This document shows, one piece after another, positions 38,800 to 54,900 of a stretch of DNA of 61,917 nucleotides. The notes under the pieces were generated by a model. That model ran no database searches. It worked only from the letters and a program-made list of their open reading frames with translations, and had not been told where the DNA came from. Within the stretch, counting starts at the first letter, position 1. Every line of letters starts with the position of its first letter. The stretch lies in NCBI GenBank assembly GCA_039111535.1, contig JBCCIM010000013.1:1-61917 (forward strand). The letters are read 5' to 3'. The DNA comes from Bacteroidota bacterium. Its GTDB lineage: Bacteria; Bacteroidota; Rhodothermia; Rhodothermales; JAHQVL01. The position numbers were made by a program, and so were the translations under genes.

Positions 38800-40332
38800 A
38801 TGATTTTACCACGGAGCAGCGGCATACTCCTTCACATCACATCCCTCCCAAGTCCTTTTGGGGTCGGCGACCTTGGGCCGTCGGCGTTTCACTTTGCCGA
38901 CTTGCTTCACGAGGCGCACCAACAAGTCTGGCAAGTGCTACCACTCGTTCCCGCCGGTTTTGGAAATTCCCCGTACGCGAGTCCGTCAACCTTTGCCGGT
39001 AATCCGTTGCTCATCAGTCCGGAAAAACTGCTGGAAGACGGCCTGTTGGAGGCAGCAGATCTGACAGAGATTCCAGCATTTGATACGACGAAAGTAGATT
39101 TTGAAGCTGTCAAACCATTCAAATTCAGTTTGCTCAAGCGCGCTTTTATGCGGTTTGAAGCCGGCAAAAGCAGCCTCAATCCCGCAGGGTTTGATACCTA
39201 CTGCGCTGCAAACCAGTCATGGCTGGATGATTACGCGCTATTTTCTGTACTCAAGGCATTTTATGATGATCAGGAGTGGGTTGATTGGCCCCACGATATC
39301 AAACAGCGTGCATCAGCCGCTATAGACAAAGCCCGCAAGGAGCACGCACGTGATATCCGCATGCACCAGTTCTGGCAATACCTCTTCGATAAACAGTGGC
39401 ATGCGCTGAAGGCCTATTGCAATGCGAAGGATATCAAGATGTTTGGCGACCTGCCCATTTATGTCGCACACGACAGCGCCGACGTTTGGGCAAATCAAGA
39501 ACGATTTTATCTGGATGCCGATGGCCGACAGACTGTAGTTGCCGGCGTGCCCCCCGACTATTTCAGCGAAACAGGCCAGCGCTGGGGCAACCCCATCTAC
39601 AGGTGGGATAAAATGGCCGAGCAGCAATATGCGTGGTGGACCGAGCGATTTGCCGCCATCCTGAAGCAAGTCGATTATGTTCGGCTCGATCACTTCCGTG
39701 GCTTCGAAGCCTACTGGGAAGTGCCGGCATCCGAAGATACAGCCATTAACGGGACCTGGGTAGAAGGCCCCAAACATGCGCTTTTTGAGGTATTGAAACG
39801 CGAACTGGGCGACCTGCCCGTCATCGCTGAAAACCTGGGGGTCATAACCGAAGGCGTTACGTCCATCATGGAAGCCTTCGAATTTCCAGGTATGGCTATT
39901 CTGCAGTTTGCCTTCGATGGCGATCCATCATCAGAATTCCTCCCGCACAACTACCAACAGCACCTGGTAGCCTATACGGGTACCCACGACAACGATACGT
40001 TAAAAGGCTGGTGGTTCAACAACCAGAGCACGCAAGAGGCAGCAGCCATCGAACGGGCCAGAAACTATGCACGCGCATATCTTGACCTGGAAGGCAAAGC
40101 TGATGAACACCTGCACTGGCCCTTTAATCGGGCGCTTCTGGCTTCTGTCGCAGCATTAGCCGTGCTTCCGTTGCAGGATGTAATGGGTTTGGGGCAACAT
40201 GCGCGCATGAACACACCCGGTACAGTTGGTGATGCCAACTGGTCTTGGCGCTTTACATTCGATATGTTATCCGCTGAGGCGGTTACACACCTCGGAAAAC
40301 TGACCAAGCTGTATGGACGCGCCATCGTATAG
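38800..40332 (+). CDS. malQ: 4-alpha-glucanotransferase (amylomaltase)
   Basis: A 510-residue GH77 enzyme that transfers maltosyl and longer units between alpha-1,4-glucans. The start SSGILLHITSLPSPFGVGDLGP and GNSPYASPSTFAGNPLLISPE are classic MalQ. Catalytic motifs: nucleophile Asp in DYVRLDHFRGFEAYW, acid Glu in PVIAENLG, and the GTHDNDTLKGWW transition-state Asp. I chose the ATG at 38800. Cluster partners glgX (convergent) and glgB indicate a shared role in storage-glucan turnover. Confidence 0.95.
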   Translation: MILPRSSGILLHITSLPSPFGVGDLGPSAFHFADLLHEAHQQVWQVLPLVPAGFGNSPYASPSTFAGNPLLISPEKLLEDGLLEAADLTEIPAFDTTKVDFEAVKPFKFSLLKRAFMRFEAGKSSLNPAGFDTYCAANQSWLDDYALFSVLKAFYDDQEWVDWPHDIKQRASAAIDKARKEHARDIRMHQFWQYLFDKQWHALKAYCNAKDIKMFGDLPIYVAHDSADVWANQERFYLDADGRQTVVAGVPPDYFSETGQRWGNPIYRWDKMAEQQYAWWTERFAAILKQVDYVRLDHFRGFEAYWEVPASEDTAINGTWVEGPKHALFEVLKRELGDLPVIAENLGVITEGVTSIMEAFEFPGMAILQFAFDGDPSSEFLPHNYQQHLVAYTGTHDNDTLKGWWFNNQSTQEAAAIERARNYARAYLDLEGKADEHLHWPFNRALLASVAALAVLPLQDVMGLGQHARMNTPGTVGDANWSWRFTFDMLSAEAVTHLGKLTKLYGRAIV

Positions 40333-40366
40333 ACTGAAAAACAAGTAATCGGGTAGCGTTTCCTGC

Positions 40367-42562
40367 TTATTCAGCTCTTAGGACCCATACACTGCGAGGA
40401 GGCACTGCACCGCGATCACCCATCTGAAACCCTGTGCCCACTTCAGGATCGCCGGCAACCGCATTCAACGCCATGGTCCATCCATGCTCCCGGTCTTTGG
40501 AAGCGCTCGGGACAACAAATGAAACAGACTCATGGCTCGCATTAAAAATAACGAGGAACGTATCGTCCTGTATGCGCTGACCAGTAGCGTCCTTTCGTAG
40601 GATACGATCGCCTTGTAGCATCATGCCTATCGTTCTGAGGCGATCATTTTGCCAGTCGCCTTCTCCCATCTCACGCCCAGAAGGATGCCACCACATCACA
40701 TCTTTCAATCCGGATTCATCCACACGGCCAGTAAGGAAATGGTGCCGGCTAAAATTAGGATGGGCCTTTCGAAAATGAATGACCTTTTTCATATACGCCA
40801 GAAATTCCTGCGCCTCATCATCCAGCGACCAGTTGTACCAGTTAATGTCATTGTCCTGGCAATAGGCGTTGTTGTTACCATGCTGGGTTTTAGAGAGTTC
40901 ATCCCCACCCAATACCATCGGCACCCCCTGAGAAAACAGGAGGCTGGCAATCATCGCCTGCTTAAGCTTCTTCCGGTGTCCGTTGACCGCTGGATCATCA
41001 GAAGGCCCCTCAACGCCCATATTGATGCTGTGATTGGCATTGTGGCCGTCGCGGTTGCCTTCTTTGTTTAATTCGTTGTGCTTTTGCTCATAGCTCACAA
41101 AATCCTGTAACGTGTAGCCGTCGTGGGCTGTCAGGAAGTTGATGGAGGCATATGGCCGGCGGCCCGACCACTCATAGAGGTCGCTGGAGCCGGCGAGGCT
41201 TGTGGCCATATCACCAATCAATCCCGTATCCCCGCGCCAGAAGCGCCGCATAACGTCTCTGTACCGGCCATTCCACTCCGTCCATTGCCAGGGGAAACTG
41301 CCCACCTGGTAGCCCCCTGGCCCTACATCCCACGGCTCCGCAATCAGTTTAACCTGGCTCAACACGGGGTCCTGCTGGATGACCTGAAAAAAGGCCGATA
41401 ACATGTTGATTTCAAAAAGATCGCGGGCGAGGGCAGCGGCAAGATCAAACCGAAAACCGTCCACATGCATTTCCTCGACCCAGTACCGCAAACTGTCCAT
41501 CACCAGTTGGAGAACATGTGAGTTGCCCATATCTAGCGTATTACCCGTACCGGTATAGTCCATCAGATACCGCGGATCTGACGGATTCTGCTTGTAATAC
41601 GAAAGGTTGTCTATGCCTCTAAACGACAGGGTAGGCCCCATGTGGTTGCCTTCGCCTGTGTGGTTGTATACAACGTCTATGATAACTTCAAAGCCGGCGG
41701 CGTGTAATCCACGCACCATCATTTTGAATTCGCGAACCGCAGCAATCGGATCATCTGCTGCACTTGTATTGGCAGCGTACGCGGGCTCGGGTGCAAAGTA
41801 GGCCAGCGTATTGTACCCCCAGTAGTTGACCAACTCTTTTTCTACGAGGTGGGCTTCTTCAACCCGCGCATGTACGGGCAAGAGTTGGATGGTTGTGACA
41901 CCAAGGCTTTTGAAATGGTCGAGTACGGGCGCTGAAATAAGGCCAAGGTAAGAACCACGCAGTCCTTCTGGCACATCCGGATGCAACTGGCTGATGCCTT
42001 TTACATGCGTTTCGTAAATGATGGTATCTGCCCACGCAATGCCGGGCGGCTTGTCATTGCCCCATTCAAAATGCTCTTCTATAACCGCCCCGAGTGGTGC
42101 ATAGGCGGCCGTATCGACGGTTGAAAAGGTCAGGTCGGCTTCCGGATCTTCGCTATCATAGCCATACAAACCGTCGTCCCATTTCATTGGCCGGCCAATT
42201 GCACGAGCATAGGGATCCAAAAGGACCTTATTGCGATTGAAGCGCAGTCCCTTCTCAGGTACATAAGGACCGTCAACGCGGTACCCGTAGCACTGCCCCG
42301 GTTTTACATGCGGCAAATATATATGCCAGATCGGGCCGGTACGCTGATCGAGTACGTGCACCTCGCTGGGTGCAGCATCTTCTGCACGGGCAAAAAGCAG
42401 CAATTCTACACGTGTAGCCTGTGCGCTATAGAGCGCAAAATTAACGCCTATACCATCCCATGTTGCCCCAAGCGGATAAGGTTTGCCAGGCATCACAGGC
42501 ATTTGGTTGCTTTTGTCGTCGGTCACTGTATCTTCAGCAGAGATTGAGAGCATCGGGTCCAT
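40367..42562 (-). CDS. glgX: Glycogen debranching enzyme (isoamylase type)
   Basis: A 731-residue GH13 debranching enzyme acting on alpha-1,6 branches. It has the N-terminal CBM48 ([29 protein letters not shown]) and the catalytic motifs [25 protein letters not shown] (nucleophile Asp), [17 protein letters not shown] (acid Glu) and [36 protein letters not shown] is the GlgX/isoamylase signature. It is convergent with malQ (34-bp gap) and divergent from glgB. Confidence 0.95.
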
Positions 42563-42754
42563 ATTCGGAACTTCTATCTAGAATTCATGACTTGCTTTAT
42601 GAATCATTGCTTAAGTTATGACGAAGATAACCTAAACTTGAATTACGTACTTTGCTAACGTGGTACACACCAGCTAGGGAATGTAACACACCAGTTTTCG
42701 TTCAATACATTTTTTCTCATCGAGAACAAGCTCAAAGGCCAGTTAACATAAATT

Positions 42755-44653
42755 ATGCCGTGGATAAGTAACGCAGAAGCCCAGGCGTGGCAGGAAGGAC
42801 AGTTTCACCAAAGCTATCATAAGTTTGGGGCCCACCCTGATGCAACTGGGTGCTGGTTTGCCGTTTGGGCACCGCATGCAGATTCAATTGCCATCATTGG
42901 TGACTTTAATGATTGGTCGAATACGGCACACTGGATGAACCGCGAAGCAGCCGGCATCTGGACCTGTTATGTCGAAGGCGCACAAACGGGCCAACGCTAC
43001 AAATACCATATTAAACGCGGCACCTACACCACCGACAAAACCGACCCGTTTGCTTTCCAAATGGAAGCCCCTCGCCCACAGGGCAACGATATTGACGGCC
43101 TGTCATCGATTATTACAGATTTATCTGGTTACCAATGGCAAGATGATGCCTGGATGAAAAGCAGAAGGGGGCCTTCGGGCATTGATACGCCCATCTCTGT
43201 GTACGAGGTGCACCTGGGCTCCTGGATAACAGACGACAACGGGAATCCCCTGAATTATCGCCAGATTGCACAGTCTCTAGCAGATTATGTTTCGGATATG
43301 GGATTCACCCATATCGAGGTCCTGCCCTTGATGGAGCACCCCTATTACGGCTCATGGGGCTACCAGACCATTGGGTATTATGCCGCCACGCACCGGTATG
43401 GCAGCCCGGAAGACTTGAAATTCTTTGTGGACTACATGCACCAGCGTGGTATCGGCATCATCCTCGATTGGGTGCCGGCACACTTTGCAGTAGATCCCCA
43501 GGGCCTTGTTTTCTTTGATGGTAGCACCCTCTTTGAATACGACGACCCCCAGATGCGGCAACATCCAGACTGGGGCACCTACATTTTTGATTACAACAAG
43601 CCAGGTGTACGTAACTTCCTTACCTCCAATGCACTGTTCTGGCTCGACGAATACCACATCGACGGCTTGCGATTCGACGCCGTAGCCTCGCTCCTCTACC
43701 GCGACTATTCTCGTACTGAATGGTCACCCAACAAATATGGCGGCCGGGAGAACCTGGAAGCGATAGATTTTCTAAAGAAAGTGAACGAGGTGGTTTACAA
43801 CCGCTTTCCCGAAGCCCTGATGATTGCGGAGGAATCCACGGCCTGGCCTGGCGTCTCAAAACCTACGTACGATAACGGCCTGGGCTTTCTCTACAAATGG
43901 AATATGGGCTGGATGCATGACACGCTCAAATACGTTGAGGAAGACCCCGTACACCGGGCTTTTCACCATAACAACCTGACCTTTCCGTTATTTTACGCAT
44001 TCACCGAACAGTACATGCTACCACTCTCGCATGATGAAGTGGTACACGGTAAAGGATCACTTTGGGGCAAAATGCCGGGTGATCTCTGGCAAAAAGCAGC
44101 AAACCTTCGCTTGCTCTACGGCCACATGTTTGGCCACCCAGGCAAGAAACTGCTGTTTATGGGCTGTGAATTTGGACAGCCAGAAGAATGGAATTATAAA
44201 CAGTCGCTCAACTGGTCTTTACTGGAATATCCCCTGCACAAAGGATTACAAGACTGGGTTCGGGCGCTTAATACCCTCTATCGCACATATCCTGCACTCG
44301 GTAAAGACAGTGGAGATGCCTTCTACTGGATTGACCACACCGACGCACAACACAGTCTGGTGAGCTATGTGCGGCATCTGGACGATGAAACCCTGGTGTT
44401 TGTCCTGAACTTCACCCCTGTGCCGCGCGATGAACACCTTCAGGGCATGCCCAAGACGGGGACCTGGAAGCTCCTGCTAAATAGCGATGACCCTGCTTAT
44501 GGCGGTAGCGGATACGGGAAAGTGAAAGCAACTGTGAAGGTGAACGATAAAACACCTCACCAGGGGCAACCGGGTTCAATGAAGCTGACTGTGCCGCCTT
44601 TAGCGCTGATGGTGTTCAAACACACGCCGGCGAAAACCAAGAAGAAGAAATAG
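42755..44653 (+). CDS. glgB: 1,4-alpha-glucan branching enzyme
   Basis: A 632-residue GH13 branching enzyme that makes alpha-1,6 links in glycogen. One N-terminal CBM48 ([20 protein letters not shown]) precedes motifs [28 protein letters not shown] (nucleophile Asp), [16 protein letters not shown] (acid Glu) and [15 protein letters not shown]. The single N-terminal module (no N1 domain) puts it with shorter GlgB forms. A lysine-rich tail ends the protein. Divergent from glgX across a 192-bp gap that likely holds both promoters. Confidence 0.96.
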
Positions 44654-44710: not shown

Positions 44711-46570
44711 CTATTGCCAGCTGCGCCCTTCAATCACAACGTTGAAGGTTACGGAGTTGAATTGTGGTACAATCGACGAATCAACTGGAGAGGGGTAGTT
44801 TTCCAGATTGATTTCAGGCAATTCCTGCGAACCAAAGCCAAGCGCTTCAACCGCACCATCGCCATTGTCGAGCCCGAGTTGGATGAGCTGAGAAACGATG
44901 GCCTCTGCCCTGCGGATACTGATATCAAAGTTATCTTTCTCCGTATCACCATCGGTAGAGTAGCCCCAAACGCTGATCACGATATTTTTGTGACCCAGCT
45001 TGGCGTTATCGAGAAGTCCTTTGGTGGAAAGGTAGATTTCGTAGAGGTTGTTGTTCTGCGTAGAATCAACGTCGAAAGAAGCTTTATTGAAGTACACAAA
45101 CTTGTTTTCAAGTTCTACTTCGTAAGCCAGCATCGCGCTTTCGTCGAACTCGACCACTTCGTCATCATTATAACTGACGATACCAACGATGAAGCCGGCT
45201 TTTTCACGCGCTTTCTCTTTCCACAGCACAGGCACACCATTGCCCGTGGCAATGAGCACTTTGTTCTCTACTTTCAAATCAACAGCTTCAGGAAGCGGGC
45301 CAAGGAACTGCTGGGCGCGAAGCTCCAAAATTTCGTCCGACAAATCGCTATACGCAGTCCAGCGTTGCACCACGTCTTCAGGATTCAGATCAGTGGCTTC
45401 CAGCAGCGAATCAGCACTAATGGCCAGCGGGTCTTTGAGACCTTGCACAAACCACTTGCCGCCATCCCGTCCTGAATCAAGAATGACAATACCCGGCTGG
45501 CTGTCGAGTTTGTTAAGGTACTCTTTCCAGTCGATGTTGTCTTTTACGAAGAAAACAGCAATCGTAACCAACCAAACGGCAAGACCACCCAGGATAATCC
45601 AGAAAAGCGGCGATACGGGCCGTGTTGGAATTTGGTAGTGCGAAAGCAGCTCGGATTCGAGAATCGGCTTGGTTGCTTCAAACGGTGTAATATCGCCGTC
45701 GAAGAACGTAAGGGCAGCATTAAATTGGAGATGAACAGAGCGCGCGGTTTCTTTCAATACGCGTCGCAATTCGGGCTCCGGCGTAACGCGAACAACAGCC
45801 GCGAGAATAGCCTTGGGGCCTTGTTCAATCCAAACAGTCAATTCTCCAACTTGCAGGGTTGCAAGCCCCTCCTCTGCCTTTGTGCCGAACGAGTCTTGCA
45901 CAAAGTCCTGGATGGCGGTAAGCATACTGGATACGAGCGAACCATCTTGTGCTTTTACCGAATCGGCAACCACGTGCTGCAGCGGCAACCCGCTGATGCG
46001 ATGGATAAGAAAGACTTGCTCAACGCGGTACCGCAGGGTATGACTGAGAACAACTTCAGAAAACGAGCGGCCGCTCCGCATGGCTTCAATCTGCCACTTG
46101 ATGCCCTGGAGTGAGACGCCATATTGCAGTGCCCACTTGATGGCATTACGGGTAGAGCGGAAAGATTCGCGAATCCCCCGGCGCAGCGCAGGCACCACGA
46201 GTGGGGAAATCCCCTCGACCATGGTTTCTGTGTCCTGTTGAACAGATACGTCCAGGGTTCGGCTAAATGTCTGGGATAACGCCTTGGCGAGTTTGTCTCC
46301 TTTCCTGGCGTTTATTGCTACGGCTTCGGGCAGGTATTTGCTGATAGAATTGAGTTGGGCATCTGGTGCCTCCAACTCATCCAGCCGGCGATGCAGTTGC
46401 ATCAGCTGATACTGCTCTGGCGCGAGGAGTATCCGGCGAAGTTCTTCAATTTCTTCTTCTGTAAGCTTGCTCAATACACCATCCCCAGCGCCGCTGCCAT
46501 ACACCGACCCCACAACCTTGGAACCAAGGGGTGTTCGCCTATAGGGGTTTGCAGGAGAAGCTTCAGACAT
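44711..46570 (-). CDS. OmpA-type inner-membrane protein with large cytosolic region
   Basis: A 619-residue protein with no signal peptide but one central transmembrane helix (about 321-343, PLFWIILGGLAVWLVTIAVFF). Residues 35-110 are helical. Residues about 183-290 (QVFLIHRISGLPLQHV...SSMLTAIQDFVQDSF...GELTVWIEQGPKAILAAVVR) look like a Roadblock/longin-type small-GTPase-interaction fold. After the membrane come a BON-like segment (346-390, QPGIVILDSGRDGGKWFVQGL) and a C-terminal OmpA peptidoglycan-binding domain (490-615; ISVWGYSTDGDTEKDNFDISIRRAEAI). It is divergent from a Ras-like GTPase and histidine kinase, which may be its partners. Confidence 0.8.
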   Translation of the reverse strand: MSEASPANPYRRTPLGSKVVGSVYGSGAGDGVLSKLTEEEIEELRRILLAPEQYQLMQLHRRLDELEAPDAQLNSISKYLPEAVAINARKGDKLAKALSQTFSRTLDVSVQQDTETMVEGISPLVVPALRRGIRESFRSTRNAIKWALQYGVSLQGIKWQIEAMRSGRSFSEVVLSHTLRYRVEQVFLIHRISGLPLQHVVADSVKAQDGSLVSSMLTAIQDFVQDSFGTKAEEGLATLQVGELTVWIEQGPKAILAAVVRVTPEPELRRVLKETARSVHLQFNAALTFFDGDITPFEATKPILESELLSHYQIPTRPVSPLFWIILGGLAVWLVTIAVFFVKDNIDWKEYLNKLDSQPGIVILDSGRDGGKWFVQGLKDPLAISADSLLEATDLNPEDVVQRWTAYSDLSDEILELRAQQFLGPLPEAVDLKVENKVLIATGNGVPVLWKEKAREKAGFIVGIVSYNDDEVVEFDESAMLAYEVELENKFVYFNKASFDVDSTQNNNLYEIYLSTKGLLDNAKLGHKNIVISVWGYSTDGDTEKDNFDISIRRAEAIVSQLIQLGLDNGDGAVEALGFGSQELPEINLENYPSPVDSSIVPQFNSVTFNVVIEGRSWQ

Positions 46571-46871
46571 AATTGGAATCTAATCCGACTTAAACGTGTC
46601 ACCAGGCATGTAGCATGCTTTAAAAGCATATATGCGCAGGTCGTTAAAATAGTATCAGGAGTGATTTCAGCGCATTAGGCTAGCTTGCACAAAACGCGGG
46701 AAATCTTTGGTTAAAGGTATTTAACGCCAGTAACAGGTTAATTCTTCGGCTTTGTATTGTATGCCGGCTACACACACCCAACTCACACCATACAATCTCG
46801 AAGAGCTTGATAATATACGGTATTTATTGCGAAAAAGTATCGTAAGGGAATCTTTTCTGCAACAGCGTTTT

Positions 46872-46879
46872 TATCTTTG
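46872..46879 (+). promoter_or_regulatory. Candidate -7 promoter element (TATCTTTG)
   Basis: An exact match to the Bacteroidetes -7 consensus TAnnTTTG, 14 bp ahead of a long hairpin and preceded by T-rich sequence (TTTTCTG at 46853-46859) near the -33 position. It predicts a start of transcription near 46885 on the plus strand. Confidence 0.5.
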
Positions 46880-46884
46880 CGCTA

Positions 46885-46976
46885 TGTCAGTGGTTCTGCC
46901 TGCCATCTTTGAGCAACCAGATAGCACCAGAACATACACATGTCGCATGCTTGCAGGAGCGACCTGCAGTTTTTGA
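46885..46976 (+). ncRNA. Candidate structured small RNA with terminator
   Basis: A predicted RNA of about 90 nt. After the TATCTTTG element a long imperfect hairpin forms: GTTCTG (46893-46898) pairs with CAGAAC (46928-46933), then TGC with GCA and ATCT with AGAT around a TTGAGCAACC loop. A short linker leads to the terminator TGCAGG-AGCGA-CCTGCA plus G and five T residues (46952-46974). No known RNA family is recognised. A 30-codon frame from the ATG at 46884 runs through it, so a tiny leaderless peptide is the alternative reading. Confidence 0.5.
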
Positions 46977-47345
46977 GTACAGTTTTTTCAACTACGCCAA
47001 GCCCTAAGAATAAACATCAGGAGAATAGGGCGGCATACCGTGTGTCTCACTCGACCATCAACCTTTGGCGCAATTGTCATCATACTATTCGCCCGAGCAT
47101 GTAACTCTTTTGGCATTTTAGCATTGAATAAAAAACTGAACCAAATTATCAAATTTTCTTTCTCGAACACCCTTCGTAACGAACGGTAGAGAAACCGGAC
47201 GAAAAAATGCTATCGCATGGTTTTTCGATTGAATTCACCACACGTGCATAATTCGTGCTTCGAAAAGCCTACCTGTATTAACCCGGTTCGTTTTGGATTC
47301 CATCGATTGCCCTGTAATAGGTCCAAACAACGGTAAGCTCAAGTA

Positions 47346-47885
47346 ATGACCAAATCTTCTTCGCAAGACGTTACCCCGAAAATAGACTTGCAGATGACCC
47401 AGAAAAAGATCTGTACCCTCGGCACATCAGCCGTAGGAAAAAGCAGTCTTGTTGCCAGATTTGTCAAGGGAATTTTCTCTGACAGTTACCTGACGACAAT
47501 TGGCGTCAAGATTGACAAGAAGTCCGTGTCCCTGAAAGGGCAGAAAGTAGATCTGCTAATATGGGATCTCAACGGCGAGGATCGATTCCAGAAACTCTCC
47601 ATGAATTACCTTCGCGGTACAGCAGGTTATCTGCTCGTCATCGATGGTACACGGCGCAACACCCTGGACGCTGCTCTGGCTTTGCATCACAAGGCCCAGG
47701 CAACCCTCGGGACTGTCCCTTCTGTTGTTTTAATCAACAAAGCGGACAGAAAAGAAGAGTGGGAGATTGAAGAGGCTGATATCAATGATTTACAAGCACG
47801 AGGCTGGACGGTAATGGAAACCAGTGCCAAATCCGGCTCCGGAGTGGAGAAGGCTTTCACTAACCTTACGCAAAAGCTCGTATAG
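47346..47885 (+). CDS. Ras-like small GTPase (Rab/Rup type)
   Basis: A 179-residue single-domain GTPase. All five G motifs are present: P-loop GTSAVGKSS (26-34, Lys32), switch I Thr in YLTTIGV (Thr51), DLNGED (Asp74, Gly77), NKAD (131-134) and ETSAKSG (Ser160-Lys162). The position after the DxxG glycine, a glutamine in Ras, is Glu78, so intrinsic hydrolysis may be low or need an activator. No C-terminal cysteine for lipidation is seen. It lies 37 bp upstream of a histidine kinase on the same strand and opposite an OmpA-type membrane protein. An internal ATG at 47394 is possible but has no ribosome site. Confidence 0.92.
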   Translation: MTKSSSQDVTPKIDLQMTQKKICTLGTSAVGKSSLVARFVKGIFSDSYLTTIGVKIDKKSVSLKGQKVDLLIWDLNGEDRFQKLSMNYLRGTAGYLLVIDGTRRNTLDAALALHHKAQATLGTVPSVVLINKADRKEEWEIEEADINDLQARGWTVMETSAKSGSGVEKAFTNLTQKLV

Positions 47886-47922
47886 CCAGAATCGATCAGT
47901 TCTATCCCAGCAAATCACTGCC

Positions 47923-49059
47923 ATGAATCCTGTTTTGTTACCTCCCAACCTGCTTGCACAGCTGGACATGGCTGTCTTTCGCCGCGAAAGCGATGGAGCG
48001 TTCTCGTTGATTGGAGAGGCGCCCCAGTGGCTCAGACAGTTGTACCCTAAATTACCTACGGATGGCTCAACCTGGCATCCGGAGCATCACCTTGTTTATC
48101 TCGCCCACTTTTTGGAAGAAGCGGAAGAGGTATGGAAAGGCGGCACGGTTGTACACCACACGTCGGATATCTGGACAGAAGAAGACCCAACAGGCAAAGA
48201 GTGGCTCCTCGAAGCCATTGCACTACGCCTGGACGACCAGGATCTCCTTCTGCTTAAATTTCCTTCCAACGACTTTCAAACGTTGCGCAGCATCTACCAG
48301 GAAGCCCGCGACCAGAGTTTGAAGCAATACAATTTGATGAAGGAGATCGATAAGCGCGAAGTGCTGCTGCACTGTACCGTGCACGATCTTTCTGCACCGC
48401 TGGCCGGCATCCGCGCCAGCCTCTGGCTTTTGCACGAAGACAAAATGGTGCAGCCCGTAGGAGAAGAATTTGTCGAAATTGGCCTCGACCAGGTCGACAA
48501 AATGCAGGACCTGATCAAAGATACCCTGACAACCTTCTCTACGCGCTCCAAACCGCTCTTCCAACCGACAGCCAACCTGGAAGACGCACCTGATATTGCC
48601 GAGAGTGCCAAAGAGGTAACCGAAGCCCTTGGCGCAATGGCCTCGATGAAAGACGTCACCTTCAGGATATCAACAGAAGGCCCTGACGATACCAGTTGGA
48701 AAGTAGCCGGTGACCACGCCAGGCTTGAGCGTATTTTGTTCAACTTGCTCGAAAACGCCCTCCGACACACCCGAGACGGCACCTCTGTTGTGGTCCGGCT
48801 TCGAGATGAAGGCAATTCCATCCGCATCAGCATCAAAGACCAGGGCAAAGGTGTGCCGCTGGAGATGATGAACAAATTGTTCGAGAAGTTCACCCAGGGA
48901 TCAGACGAGTCGGGCAAAGTGGGCCTGGGCCTCTATTTCTGTCGTATTACGGTGGAAAGCTGGGGTGGAGAAATTGGCTGCCTGCCAAATATCAAAGATG
49001 GCGCTTGCTTCTGGTTCACACTGCCGAAAGCCGGCCAAAACGGCGTCGCGCACGCCTGA
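47923..49059 (+). CDS. Soluble sensor histidine kinase
   Basis: A 378-residue kinase without membrane segments. Residues 1-125 look like a PAS-type input domain (DMAVFRRESDGAFSLIGEAPQWL), then a helical linker (about 128-148). The phospho-acceptor is His154 in HCTVHDLSAPLAG, followed by a DHp helix pair and the HATPase domain with the N box (LLENALRH, Asn278), DQGKG (306-310) and GLGLYFCR (335-341). I chose the ATG at 47923, which starts in the spacer beyond the GTPase gene. No response regulator is adjacent. The gene is coupled to the GTPase. Confidence 0.9.
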   Translation: MNPVLLPPNLLAQLDMAVFRRESDGAFSLIGEAPQWLRQLYPKLPTDGSTWHPEHHLVYLAHFLEEAEEVWKGGTVVHHTSDIWTEEDPTGKEWLLEAIALRLDDQDLLLLKFPSNDFQTLRSIYQEARDQSLKQYNLMKEIDKREVLLHCTVHDLSAPLAGIRASLWLLHEDKMVQPVGEEFVEIGLDQVDKMQDLIKDTLTTFSTRSKPLFQPTANLEDAPDIAESAKEVTEALGAMASMKDVTFRISTEGPDDTSWKVAGDHARLERILFNLLENALRHTRDGTSVVVRLRDEGNSIRISIKDQGKGVPLEMMNKLFEKFTQGSDESGKVGLGLYFCRITVESWGGEIGCLPNIKDGACFWFTLPKAGQNGVAHA

Positions 49060-50196: not shown

Positions 50197-51462
50197 CTAA
50201 CTTTCAGCCTCCAGGGATTCCAGTTGGCGCAAAAACGATTTTACCGAGACATTTTCAGGATCTTTCTCGAGTGCCATCTCCCATGCAAACCGCGCTTCTT
50301 CGTAGCGTTTGTTGTTGGCCAATACAGCTCCGAGATTAATCCACACCTCAATGGCTTCAGGTTGGAAGTTCAGAATACGCTGGTATTGCTGAATCCCTTC
50401 CTCGAGCCGGCCTGCTTCTACCAACATATTGGCCAGGTTGTTTTGCATCGCAAGGTTTGTAGGATCCATTGTGATGCCATTTTGATACGAATCAATGGCT
50501 TTCTCATATTGCCGGCTCCGCCAAAGCAGATTTGCAAGCGTCACCCAGGCCACCGGGTTATCCGGCTCAGCGTTGATGCCATTCTCCGCCTCATTAATTG
50601 CCTGTTGCAATTGCTGCGCACTATCAGCCTGGGCCAGATAAAACTCAGCTTTTTGCTGCTCCCCTACCCGCAATAACGCCTGACCGAGATTATACTGGGC
50701 GCCCTGATGCCACGGCTGAGCTTCAGCTACAGGCTCCAGATACTCAATCGCCTTGTCTGTATCCCCCATCCGATTGTACAGCGTGCCAATAATGTAGGCA
50801 TAGTCATTGTTGTCGGGCCTGAGCTCAGCACCTTTCAAAGAATACTCCAGCGCTTTCTCCAACTCACCCGTTTCTTCCATCAACTGTCCCAACCACATGT
50901 AGGCTGTTGGATTTTCTGTATCCAGGACAATTGACTCTTCAAAAGCAGCCAGGGCGCTATCTGGCTCACCTAGCTTTGAATAGGCTTTGCCTAATTCCAG
51001 ATACAATTGCGTTGTCGGCAGAATTTCTTCTTCCGCTTTGTATGCTGCTACCGCCTGACGAAAAAGCCCGCGACGGAAAAAGTTCACACCCATGTTATGA
51101 TGTGCCCCTTTGTATCCAGCATCCCGCTTCAACACATCCTGGTAGGCCATCTGTGACTGCTCCCACCGGTTCATTTGGGCGAAGATACGGCCGCGCATGA
51201 AATATATATCCGCAAGGTCAGGCTCAATGGCTGTGGCGCTATCAAGGTATGTCATGGCAAGGTTATGATTCCCTTGCTGAAAAGAGCGTTCACTGCGACT
51301 CATAAACCTGCCGACTTCGGGAGGCAGGGTTAATCTCAGCGCCTCTGTCTTGCCCAGACTTGGCCCATCACTGCCCGTATTACATCCCGTAAAGCATAGG
51401 ACAAAACCCAATACGCAGGCCGCAAATAGCTTTTTCCTGGTGCTCATCATTCTTTCTTGCAT
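50197..51462 (-). CDS. TPR-repeat lipoprotein
   Basis: A 421-residue lipoprotein. The lipobox is FTGC (Cys26), and the body has about nine TPR units, such as GNHNLAMTYLDSATAIEPDLADIYF, EPDSALAAFEESIVLDTENPTAYM, ELEKALEYSLKGAELRPDNNDYA and QYEKAIDSYQNGITMDPTNLAMQ. It starts 2 bp after the stop codon of a CRTAC1 lipoprotein gene, so the three form an operon. It is probably a periplasmic or outer-membrane scaffold. Confidence 0.88.
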   Translation of the reverse strand: MQERMMSTRKKLFAACVLGFVLCFTGCNTGSDGPSLGKTEALRLTLPPEVGRFMSRSERSFQQGNHNLAMTYLDSATAIEPDLADIYFMRGRIFAQMNRWEQSQMAYQDVLKRDAGYKGAHHNMGVNFFRRGLFRQAVAAYKAEEEILPTTQLYLELGKAYSKLGEPDSALAAFEESIVLDTENPTAYMWLGQLMEETGELEKALEYSLKGAELRPDNNDYAYIIGTLYNRMGDTDKAIEYLEPVAEAQPWHQGAQYNLGQALLRVGEQQKAEFYLAQADSAQQLQQAINEAENGINAEPDNPVAWVTLANLLWRSRQYEKAIDSYQNGITMDPTNLAMQNNLANMLVEAGRLEEGIQQYQRILNFQPEAIEVWINLGAVLANNKRYEEARFAWEMALEKDPENVSVKSFLRQLESLEAES

Positions 51463-51464
51463 GT

Positions 51465-53192
51465 TTATTTTCCGGTAAGCGTCGTAAACTGTCCGTCTCC
51501 TTCCCTCACCAAAATTTCCTGATTGGCATCTATATCAAGCAGAACTTCTTCTGCGCCACTTGGCCAACGTATTAATAACGAATCTACCGTGGTGTTATTT
51601 CCCAGACCGAAGGTCAGTGTCTTTTCGTAGCTAGACAAAAAGCTGCTACCTGTTTTCACCCAGCGCTCGATGCGCAAGTCAGGGACAACGGCAATAACAT
51701 GGGCCCCCACCGCATCGCGGTTACTATCCACGCCTTCAAGCTTGACGCGCAAATAGCCGCCGGCCTGGGTATCATTACGCCACAGGCGAGCGGGACCGTC
51801 GTTCTCAACAAACAGAAGATCAATGTCGCCATCCCTGTCGTAATCTGCATAAGTCAGGCCACGGGCCACCATAGGCATGTTAAACGGCGCAGCTTCAGAC
51901 TTAAACTCGTCAAATACACCATTACCACGGTTGAGATAGATCTGCGGCGGCTGCCTGAATTTGATGGCTTCCTGTATGCGGGAAATATGCGTGAGTACGT
52001 GGCCATTGGCTGTAACCAAATCGAGGTCGGTATCAAGATCTATATCCAGCAAGCTGAGGCCAAACGTAAGCGTTAAGTTACTCGGGAAAGCAATGCGAGA
52101 AGCAGTAGCACGGTCTACAAACTGACCATAAGGAGAGTATCGATACACGCCAACGGTTTCTTCCGTAAAGTTGCCAACGAAGGTGGATACATAGCCTGTA
52201 CTATCAACAACGCCTGTATCGAGCCCCATGCCTGCCCGTGCCCGACCATGCTGGCTCACAGCAACGCCGGCCTGCAAGCCTACTTCTTTAAAGGTCCCAT
52301 CTTGCTGGTTTTCGAAGAGGTAGTCATTTTCCGTATCATTGCCTACCATCACATCAATCCAGCCATCTTTGTTGAAGTCGATAGGGGCTACGCCCAGCGT
52401 TTTGTCTTTCAGTGTATCGAGGCCGGCTAAAAACCCTGCTTCACGGGTCCGATTGGTAAAGGTCCCGTCTCCGTTGTTGCGGTAGTAGTGGCTCGCACGT
52501 CCATTGTATTCCTGTGGCGTGCAAAACATCTTTTGCCCTTCAAATTTACACACGATGTCGTTGAGGAAGCTCCAGTCTACATAGTTGCCTACGTACAAAT
52601 CCACAAAGCCGTCTTTGTCTGCATCAAAGAACATCGCCGAACTACTCCACGCGCTTTCGTCAGTTATCCCTGCATCGGCCCCAACTTCTACAAAGCGCCC
52701 CCCCTGGTTTTCGAAAAGCATGTTTTTCCAGAGGTTTGTCATAAAGAAGTCTTCGTCTCCATCATTGTCGTAATCAGCAACTGTAAAGCCAAAGCTATAG
52801 GTGTAGGTGTCTTTCAGGCCGCTGTTGGTGTACGTTACTTCGGTGAAAGATCCGTCTTTATTGTTTTCATAAAGCCGTACTGCCTGTACTTTTCTTCTTT
52901 CATGATGCGGGAAGGTGCCGCCTACAGCAAGCAGGATATCCGGCCAGTTGTCGTTGTTGTAATCGATAAACGCAGCGCCTGGACCGACAATTTCTGGCAT
53001 CAGTTTGTTATCGAATCCACCGGTCTCGTGGGCGTATTCACCGAGGCCAGCAGATGCGGTGACATCTGTAAACACCGGGGCACCTATATCAAGCGAAGGA
53101 ACGGCCGGCTCTTGCACACCACATCCCGTCAGGATACTGCCGAGCAACAAGATGCTGCCCAGTACAAGCAGTTTTGGGGCGTTAAACAACAT
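51465..53192 (-). CDS. CRTAC1 family lipoprotein (FG-GAP / ASPIC-UnbV), copy 2
   Basis: A 575-residue protein. The chosen ATG at 53192 gives a lipoprotein signal with lipobox LTGC; an ATG 14 codons upstream would overlap the previous gene. It consists of FG-GAP repeats (FIDYNNDNWPDILLAVGG, DYDNDGDEDFFMTNLW, DADKDGFVDLYVGNYVDW, DFNKDGWIDVMVGND) with Ca-binding DxDxDG loops and ends in an ASPIC/UnbV domain (FLSSYEKTLTFGLGNNTTVDSLLIRWPSG). It is very similar to the neighbour at 53215. Confidence 0.9.
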   Translation of the reverse strand: MLFNAPKLLVLGSILLLGSILTGCGVQEPAVPSLDIGAPVFTDVTASAGLGEYAHETGGFDNKLMPEIVGPGAAFIDYNNDNWPDILLAVGGTFPHHERRKVQAVRLYENNKDGSFTEVTYTNSGLKDTYTYSFGFTVADYDNDGDEDFFMTNLWKNMLFENQGGRFVEVGADAGITDESAWSSSAMFFDADKDGFVDLYVGNYVDWSFLNDIVCKFEGQKMFCTPQEYNGRASHYYRNNGDGTFTNRTREAGFLAGLDTLKDKTLGVAPIDFNKDGWIDVMVGNDTENDYLFENQQDGTFKEVGLQAGVAVSQHGRARAGMGLDTGVVDSTGYVSTFVGNFTEETVGVYRYSPYGQFVDRATASRIAFPSNLTLTFGLSLLDIDLDTDLDLVTANGHVLTHISRIQEAIKFRQPPQIYLNRGNGVFDEFKSEAAPFNMPMVARGLTYADYDRDGDIDLLFVENDGPARLWRNDTQAGGYLRVKLEGVDSNRDAVGAHVIAVVPDLRIERWVKTGSSFLSSYEKTLTFGLGNNTTVDSLLIRWPSGAEEVLLDIDANQEILVREGDGQFTTLTGK

Positions 53193-53214
53193 AGGGGTAT
53201 CAAAAATTCTTGGA

Positions 53215-54900
53215 TTAACGAGATATTTGTTCATACGTATCAGCACCTTCAACGATAAATATCTCCTGGTTCTTTGCAATGTTTGTAAACACGGTGGCTG
53301 GTGAATTGGGCCATTCGATACGAAGCGTATCCACCTGGCTGTTGTCACCAAGGCCAAAAGTCACCGTTTTTTCCGAACTGGACAGGTAACTGGAAGCAGT
53401 CCGAATGCGCCGGACCATATCAAGCCCGTTTACAGTCGCTGTAATTTCTGCACCAATGGCATCACGATTCCCCTTCGTCCCCTGGACCTTTACGCGCAAA
53501 AATGACTGCCCCTGCTGGTCGTTTCGCCACAGGTAGGCTTTGCCACTATTTTCGGTAAAGAGCAAATCGAGGTCACCGTCTCTGTCGTAATCAGCCTGGG
53601 CCAACCCGCGCGCAACAAGCTGGTCGGTAAAGACGCCTTCATCTGCTTCATGCAGATCGAACACACCATTCCCGCGATTCAGGTAAAGTTGGGCCGGCTG
53701 CCGATAGGTTACTTTGTCCTTATCGCCAATCCGGTCTGGGTACACGTGGCCGTTAGCAAGCAAAATATCCATGTCTGTGTCTAGATCTGCATCAAACAGA
53801 ATCAACCCAAACGTGAGAATCAACAAACTGGGGTAGCCGACCCGAGAAATGGCTGAGCGGTCGAGAAACGATTCATTGCCGATGTGTTTGTATACACCGA
53901 CCATTTCTTCGGAGAAATTACCAACAACAATTGAATAGCGGCCGCTGCTATCCAGCACTGCGGCATCGATACCCATGCCAGCGCGCGCTTCGCCATGCTC
54001 GCTAAACGCCATGCCGCTTTTGACACCAATTTCTGTAAACGTACCGTCTTTGTTGTTGCGATAGAGCAAGTCTCCTTCCCCATCGTTGGCTACGGCAAAA
54101 TCTGTCCAACCATCATTGTTGAAATCCAGGTCAGCAACCCCCAGCGATTTACCCAAGGTTGGATAGAATCCGGCTGTTGCAGTAACGTCACGGAAGGTAC
54201 CATCGCCGTTATTCAGGAAGAAGCTGCTGGGAATGCCTGTGTAGGCTGCAGGTATGCAATACAGCTTAACCGTGCCCCCTGGTGGGCAAAAAATATCAGT
54301 CTCTTCGCTCCATTCGACATAGTTACCAACATAAAGGTCGAGCCAACCATCTTTATCGGCATCAAAAAACATGGCTGAACTGCTCCAGACCGCGAGTTCG
54401 TCAATGCCGGCAGCGGCGCCTACTTCGACAAAAACACCATTGTCATTTCGGAAAAGCATGTTGGTGCGCAGATTGGAGACAAAGAAGTCTTCATCGCCAT
54501 CATTGTCATAATCGGCCACGTTTACACCGAGCGTGTAGGCACGGACGCTGTCGAGTCCGGTGTCGGCGCTGACATCTTCAAATGTGCCATCGCCTTTATT
54601 TCGGTAGAGCGAGAGGGACTGCGGCTGGCGTGCAGGATCGGCTTCCCAGTTTCCGCCGGCAGCGAGCAGAATGTCGAGCCAGCCATCACCATCATAATCG
54701 ATAAAGCCGCCGCCGCTCCCCATCGGTTCGGGGTACCACTTGTCACCAGTTGCTCCTGTGTGATGCAGGAAATCTCCGAGGCCGGCTGCATCGGTTACAT
54801 CAACAAAAGATATCGGCTGTGGATTTTCAGCTTCTTCAACAGGTGAATCGCTGCTACAGCCTGCCAGGCAAAAGAGTAAAAGAATAACAACAAGCTTCAT
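53215..54900 (-). CDS. CRTAC1 family lipoprotein (FG-GAP / ASPIC-UnbV), copy 1
   Basis: A 561-residue lipoprotein (lipobox LAGC, Cys15). FG-GAP repeats include FIDYDGDGWLDILLAAGG, DYDNDGDEDFFVSNLR, DADKDGWLDLYVGNYVEW and DFNNDGWTDFAVANDGEGD, followed by the ASPIC/UnbV domain (YLSSSEKTVTFGLGDNSQVDTLRIEWPNS). The two copies share order and many identical motifs, so they are tandem duplicates. Extracellular or periplasmic adhesion or ligand binding is inferred. It is separated from the PorV-like gene by a hairpin-rich 236-bp gap. Confidence 0.9.
   Translation of the reverse strand: MKLVVILLLFCLAGCSSDSPVEEAENPQPISFVDVTDAAGLGDFLHHTGATGDKWYPEPMGSGGGFIDYDGDGWLDILLAAGGNWEADPARQPQSLSLYRNKGDGTFEDVSADTGLDSVRAYTLGVNVADYDNDGDEDFFVSNLRTNMLFRNDNGVFVEVGAAAGIDELAVWSSSAMFFDADKDGWLDLYVGNYVEWSEETDIFCPPGGTVKLYCIPAAYTGIPSSFFLNNGDGTFRDVTATAGFYPTLGKSLGVADLDFNNDGWTDFAVANDGEGDLLYRNNKDGTFTEIGVKSGMAFSEHGEARAGMGIDAAVLDSSGRYSIVVGNFSEEMVGVYKHIGNESFLDRSAISRVGYPSLLILTFGLILFDADLDTDMDILLANGHVYPDRIGDKDKVTYRQPAQLYLNRGNGVFDLHEADEGVFTDQLVARGLAQADYDRDGDLDLLFTENSGKAYLWRNDQQGQSFLRVKVQGTKGNRDAIGAEITATVNGLDMVRRIRTASSYLSSSEKTVTFGLGDNSQVDTLRIEWPNSPATVFTNIAKNQEIFIVEGADTYEQISR

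Follow-up and report, generated by a model that had tools for sequence, protein, structure and literature searches.

A reduced Group 1 Rup locus in a Rhodothermales bacterium: a Rab-like GTPase, a soluble histidine kinase and an OmpA-type membrane protein with a predicted longin/Roadblock-like domain

We examined contig JBCCIM010000013.1 of a Bacteroidota bacterium of the order Rhodothermales (assembly GCA_039111535.1), a stretch of 61,917 nucleotides that was analysed whole and is referred to below as the window. The subject is a locus in which the gene for an OmpA-type membrane protein (P0001) is divergent from the genes for a Ras-like GTPase (P0002) and a soluble histidine kinase (P0003) (Table 1). 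A first-pass annotation of the same DNA had proposed that the three open reading frames (ORFs) form one envelope-to-GTPase-to-kinase system. The ORFs and their strands were recovered as it had described them, including the 37-bp spacer between the GTPase and kinase genes (47886-47922). No RNA elements were detected in the window.

Table 1. Features of the locus, in window positions.
Feature	Position	Strand	Evidence
Membrane protein P0001, OmpA-type, 619 aa	44711-46570	-	ORF call, Pfam, fold model
P0001 residues 170-282, predicted longin/Roadblock-like domain, proposed GTPase platform	45725-46063	-	Fold model, PDB fold search, weak Roadblock profile match
Divergent intergenic region, 775 bp	46571-47345	no strand	Coil-profile scan in six frames
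Rab/Ras-like GTPase P0002, Rup Group 1 type, 179 aa	47346-47885	+	Pfam, motifs
Soluble histidine kinase P0003, 378 aa	47923-49059	+	Pfam, motifs, model

P0002 is a single-domain member of the Ras superfamily (Pfam Ras, E-value 8.8e-32; 179 aa, hence <240 aa), and its closest solved relatives in the PDB are Rab proteins (Rab35 and Rab18). All five G motifs noted in the first-pass annotation are in place: G1 GTSAVGKSS (26-34), G2 Thr51, G3 D74-x-x-G77, G4 NKAD (131-134) and G5 SAK (160-162). The position of the catalytic Gln of Ras and Rab is indeed occupied by Glu78, as had been pointed out; across the GTPase family this position is Glu in 67/88 sequences, Asp in 13/88 and Gln in just 1/88, and Glu78 suggests slow hydrolysis. 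The true start of P0002 is probably Met17 (at 47394), since 58 homologous ORFs begin exactly three residues before the KKIC motif. Arg103 (47652-47654; 88/88) and Trp139 (47760-47762; 87/89) were noted as family-specific invariant residues.

P0001 consists of a helical cytosolic N-terminus, a predicted longin/Roadblock-like domain (~170-282), a transmembrane helix (~322-342), a periplasmic region and an OmpA domain (493-584; Pfam, E-value 1.1e-6). It has a single strong hydrophobic helix, centred on 324-342, and both this helix and the OmpA anchor are retained in nearly all family members. The BON-like domain that the first-pass annotation had read in the periplasmic part was rejected, with zero BON matches across 31 family members. 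A Thermoleophilia member of the family (L082 5950-6849) stops after the longin-like domain and has no transmembrane/OmpA part, and a Dehalococcoidia member (L057 5944-6954) terminates with the transmembrane helix only.

The strand order in an alignment of the cytosolic region hinted at Roadblock. In an AlphaFold model of cytosolic residues 36-322, built on 22 sequences, residues 170-282 are modelled as a-b-b-a-b-b-b-a (H135-143, E147-155, E161-166, H175-192, E203-206, E209-215, E219-226 and H231-247; +35 gives the P0001 numbering), so that the b-b-a-b-b-b-a core and the flanking helix of the longin/Roadblock superfold are present. A Foldseek search of the PDB with this model gave a best E-value of 2.9e-5 and 25 matches at E <= 0.001, nearly all of them to longin/Roadblock domains or to complexes containing them: AP sigma subunits, zeta-COP, TRAPP, Mon1-Ccz1, Sec22b (TM-score 0.74-0.77, by target length), Rag, Ragulator, MglB and Asgard Roadblock3. 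By hhalign, the cytosolic domain matched Roadblock weakly but in register (E-value 0.0021, probability 13%; controls 0.034 and 0.62), and a PDB search with a 71-sequence profile gave just two weak, unrelated matches. The first-pass annotation had placed the GTPase partner at residues 183-290 and had looked to a Roadblock/longin-like fold there; the model of 170-282 and its PDB matches bear out the fold, as a prediction. At the level of prediction, this domain of unknown function (DUF) has a longin- or Roadblock-type fold. Domains of these two types serve Rabs, Rags and MglA as binding platforms. As GTPase platforms, the two are related to one another by permutation (PMC3521125; PMC10933270).

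P0003 carries an HATPase_c domain (Pfam, E-value 8.6e-25) and a weak HisKA match, its H154, N and G boxes are intact, and it has no transmembrane helix. A PAS-like N-terminal domain (~10-112) is followed by a signalling helix (118-149), HisKA with His154, and HATPase. We predict the N-terminal domain to be PAS-like from its model, which has a predicted local distance difference test (pLDDT) score of 86 and structural matches to PAS/LOV proteins. Gln126 is invariant (74/74) and Arg129 is found in 72/74 sequences; both lie on the helix that extends from the PAS core.

Among 99 genomes of this organism and its relatives, covering about 16 genera, the OmpA protein and the GTPase are both present in 19 and both absent from 79; a single genome has the OmpA protein alone, as a contig-edge copy (Fisher 1.9e-19, uncorrected for relatedness). 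The association is far beyond chance. When the cytosolic region was scanned against 84,980 species genomes, at least 532 relatives were found, and the best 80 of these were used for locus counts: the gene for a coiled-coil protein (the coil gene) is present in 76/80, the GTPase gene lies beside that for the OmpA protein in 76/80, and an output protein with the shared N-terminal domain is present in 64/80. The GTPase gene is on the strand of the OmpA-protein gene in 71/76 loci, with a median gap of 15 bp. These 80 loci are spread over Cyanobacteria, Acidobacteria, Nitrospirota, Desulfobacterota, Gemmatimonadota, Chloroflexi and other phyla. Linkage of the genes, whose absence would have counted against the first-pass proposal, is conserved. 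The set of OmpA protein, Ras-like GTPase and histidine kinase is real and ancient. Within Rhodothermales, the coil and OmpA-protein genes adjoin in family f4 (L045/G029, L046/G019 and L047/G005), with the GTPase gene elsewhere in the genome. At the 64 loci with the shared output domain, it heads HisKA kinases (42) and sigma-54 activators (11), the remainder including HD-GYP proteins, a SpoIIE phosphatase and a HisKA_3 kinase. A constant PAS-like domain on changing outputs would be the expected look of a GTPase effector domain.

A single linked system of this kind has been described before, as Group 1 Rup (Wuichet and Søgaard-Andersen 2014, PMC4316618). This group comprises a cytoplasmic coiled-coil protein, a membrane protein of DUF, transmembrane helix and OmpA domain, a Rup GTPase that lacks Gln in G3, and an output protein, either a kinase or a GGDEF/EAL protein, with an invariant Gln in its N-terminal region; it was placed nearest to Rab/Ras/Ran/Rho. 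As of 2014 not one Rup had been studied experimentally, and no Rup gene was found to be coupled to MglB (PMC4316618), leaving Group 1 Rup with no known regulator. Later experimental work on Rup systems was not found in the open-licence literature. Judged by motifs and neighbourhood, the window locus belongs to Group 1 Rup: its Ras/Rab-like GTPase is of the right size and lacks the G3 Gln, the neighbouring gene encodes the DUF-transmembrane-OmpA protein, and the output protein has the invariant Gln. The coiled-coil neighbour is missing from the locus and from the window and is present in a second set of the same genome. Because the coil is among the conserved neighbours in PMC4316618, we class the window set as a variant and not as a typical member.

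A coil gene and an NtrC-type regulator are both missing at the locus in the window set and in its orthologues from two sister genera (L028 and L029). Related divergent sets have the coil gene in between, and here no coil gene or remnant of one matched the coil profile, either in the 775-bp gap (six frames) or elsewhere in the window. An NtrC-type regulator gene lies beside the kinase gene in 13 full Rhodothermales sets, directly downstream and on the same strand in 12/13. The second set of this genome, on contig C8, is full, with coil, OmpA protein (35% identity), GTPase (58% identity), kinase and NtrC regulator, and no coil gene was detected in the genome outside it. The trees give no support to the window set as a recent duplicate of the C8 set. 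The window kinase clusters not with that of C8 but with the kinase of a full set from another family (G023; support 0.98), so the window set seems to be an older lineage from which components have been lost. A further NtrC-type regulator (G000:C43:11036-11761), 55-60% identical to that of C8, was found in 5/5 genomes searched. The coil and OmpA proteins have an N-terminal motif in common (L...IRDILFG.Q in the coil protein, L005 6777-7367; L.ELR.LLLGPEQ in the OmpA protein, window 44711-46570); the two match in register family-wide by hhalign (E-value 0.0015, probability 17%), and the motif is perhaps a shared docking helix.

The window locus shares with Group 1 Rup the GTPase without catalytic Gln, the DUF-transmembrane-OmpA protein, the invariant-Gln N-terminal domain of the output and the kinase as output, and differs from it in lacking the coil gene. 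Beyond PMC4316618 go the predicted folds, longin/Roadblock-like for the DUF, an assignment that we found neither in that paper nor in the other literature searched, and PAS-like for the output N-terminal domain. The outputs of relatives also extend from the kinases and GGDEF/EAL proteins of the paper to sigma-54 activators, HD-GYP and SpoIIE proteins. The actinobacterial conservon (CvnA kinase, CvnB Roadblock, CvnC and CvnD GTPase) likewise combines a GTPase, a Roadblock-type partner and a kinase in one gene set, but there the kinase is membrane-bound, the GTPase is MglA-type and no partner is OmpA-anchored, whereas here the kinase is soluble, the GTPase Rab-like and the partner OmpA-anchored. 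MglA-MglB of Myxococcus and Thermus also sets a small GTPase beside a Roadblock/longin-superfold partner (a fold that is predicted here); in our locus, however, the GTPase is nearer to Rab and the partner domain sits inside a membrane protein. A scan with Pfam Roadblock (PF03259) gave no match in genomes G000, G001 and G002, and no MglB-type or CvnB protein was found by it; a separate Roadblock gene of this genome was accordingly discarded as the GTPase partner. The eukaryotic Rab/Rag platforms (Mon1-Ccz1, TRAPP and Ragulator) resemble the present set in their Rab-like GTPase and fold-matching partner. The similarity of the partner is undetectable in sequence, however, and a peptidoglycan anchor and a two-component output are bacterial traits.

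From the gene linkage, motifs and predicted folds, which are direct results, we infer all of the binding steps, their direction and any sensing of the wall. The OmpA domain, to judge from its family, would fix P0001 to peptidoglycan, and P0001 would keep its predicted longin/Roadblock-like domain beneath the inner membrane, where a domain of this fold class may bind the GTPase and either control which nucleotide it carries or bring it to the membrane. The GTP-bound GTPase would dock on the kinase, at its PAS-like domain and signalling helix, and switch it, as domain swapping and linkage suggest; docking is placed there because this is the sole part common to otherwise unrelated output proteins. 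More speculatively, Gln126 and Arg129 might jointly supply the hydrolysis residues missing from the GTPase, in which case the output would time its own switch-off; a hydrolysis role for the invariant Gln is an idea from PMC4316618, to which the present analysis adds the Arg. Equally speculative is the last step, in which phosphate would pass to a response regulator encoded elsewhere, perhaps the NtrC-type protein of the C8 set. We consider it fairly probable that we are dealing with a reduced Group 1 Rup set acting along this route, from OmpA-anchored longin platform to Rab-like GTPase, to the PAS-like effector domain of the kinase, to a regulator elsewhere. The broader proposition, that in many bacterial phyla a Rab-like GTPase has as its partner a longin/Roadblock-type platform within a peptidoglycan-anchored membrane protein, we hold to be evenly balanced.

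Several observations weigh against this route. Binding, nucleotide or phosphotransfer data for any member were not found in the open-licence literature, the cytosolic model is of moderate quality (mean pLDDT 62 from its 22 sequences; domain blocks 48-86, parts of the core 76-86), and no longin/Roadblock relative of the P0001 domain was detected by sequence in the PDB or Pfam. Conservation of Gln126 and Arg129 at the PAS-helix junction could be structural, and the window copy, with two usual components missing, may be partly decayed or rewired. An extension of this last point would make the set a decaying or accessory paralogue that cannot signal alone and does no more than tune the C8 set by sharing its coil and NtrC regulator. 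The absence of both genes from the locus in all three orthologues and the location of the only detectable coil gene in the C8 set would fit this, as would the helix beside His154, which is similar to that of the C8 kinase. However, the catalytic motifs of GTPase and kinase are all intact and both proteins are 75-82% identical between genera, so that they appear to be under selection, and the trees tie the kinase to the full set of another family and not to a recent duplication of C8. We regard this reading as rather doubtful.

It is likewise possible, though we think it unlikely, that the longin/Roadblock-like domain does no more than hold the GTPase at a fixed envelope site while the output protein controls its nucleotide, the system marking a position (pole or septum) instead of reading wall state. 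Longin and Roadblock domains serve as scaffolds as well as parts of guanine nucleotide exchange factors and GTPase-activating proteins (GAPs), and Ragulator recruits Rag. With this scaffold role established, it is of note that the fold matches include Ragulator and AP subunits; the conserved Gln126 and Arg129 would suit a GAP role in the output protein, and the Thermoleophilia member without a transmembrane helix indicates that membrane input is not essential everywhere. The OmpA anchor and helix kept in nearly all members would nonetheless fit sensing equally well. That the genes are coincidental neighbours, with the membrane protein functioning alone and the GTPase-kinase pair independent of it, might be argued from the divergent transcription of the window copy across 775 bp and from the family with the GTPase gene elsewhere in the genome (G005, G019 and G029). 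Since the two proteins co-occur strictly even when unlinked (19/1/79) and adjoin on the same strand at 71/76 loci in distant phyla, this explanation is largely refuted and very improbable.

Elsewhere in the window, two adjacent FG-GAP/ASPIC-UnbV proteins are encoded by overlapping ORFs (51465-53357 and 53215-54900), which a TPR protein gene (50197-51462) adjoins. A glycogen cluster occupies 38800-44653, with 4-alpha-glucanotransferase (Pfam) followed by debranching-like and branching-enzyme-like ORFs, the latter two named from translation only.

The longin/Roadblock-like domain predicted in the most constant neighbour of Rup makes that neighbour a candidate regulator for Group 1 Rup, and the regulator question can now be put to the test with three proteins in purified form. 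Further outputs may be sought by means of the modular PAS-like effector domain. If the proposed OmpA-anchored platform does act on the Rab-like GTPase, partnerships of Rab and longin would extend beyond eukaryotes and archaea to bacteria, with a Rab-type switch relaying signals from the envelope to interchangeable outputs by way of a PAS-type effector domain. The finding bears on the origin of the Rab-longin partnership and on the route by which envelope state may reach two-component outputs.

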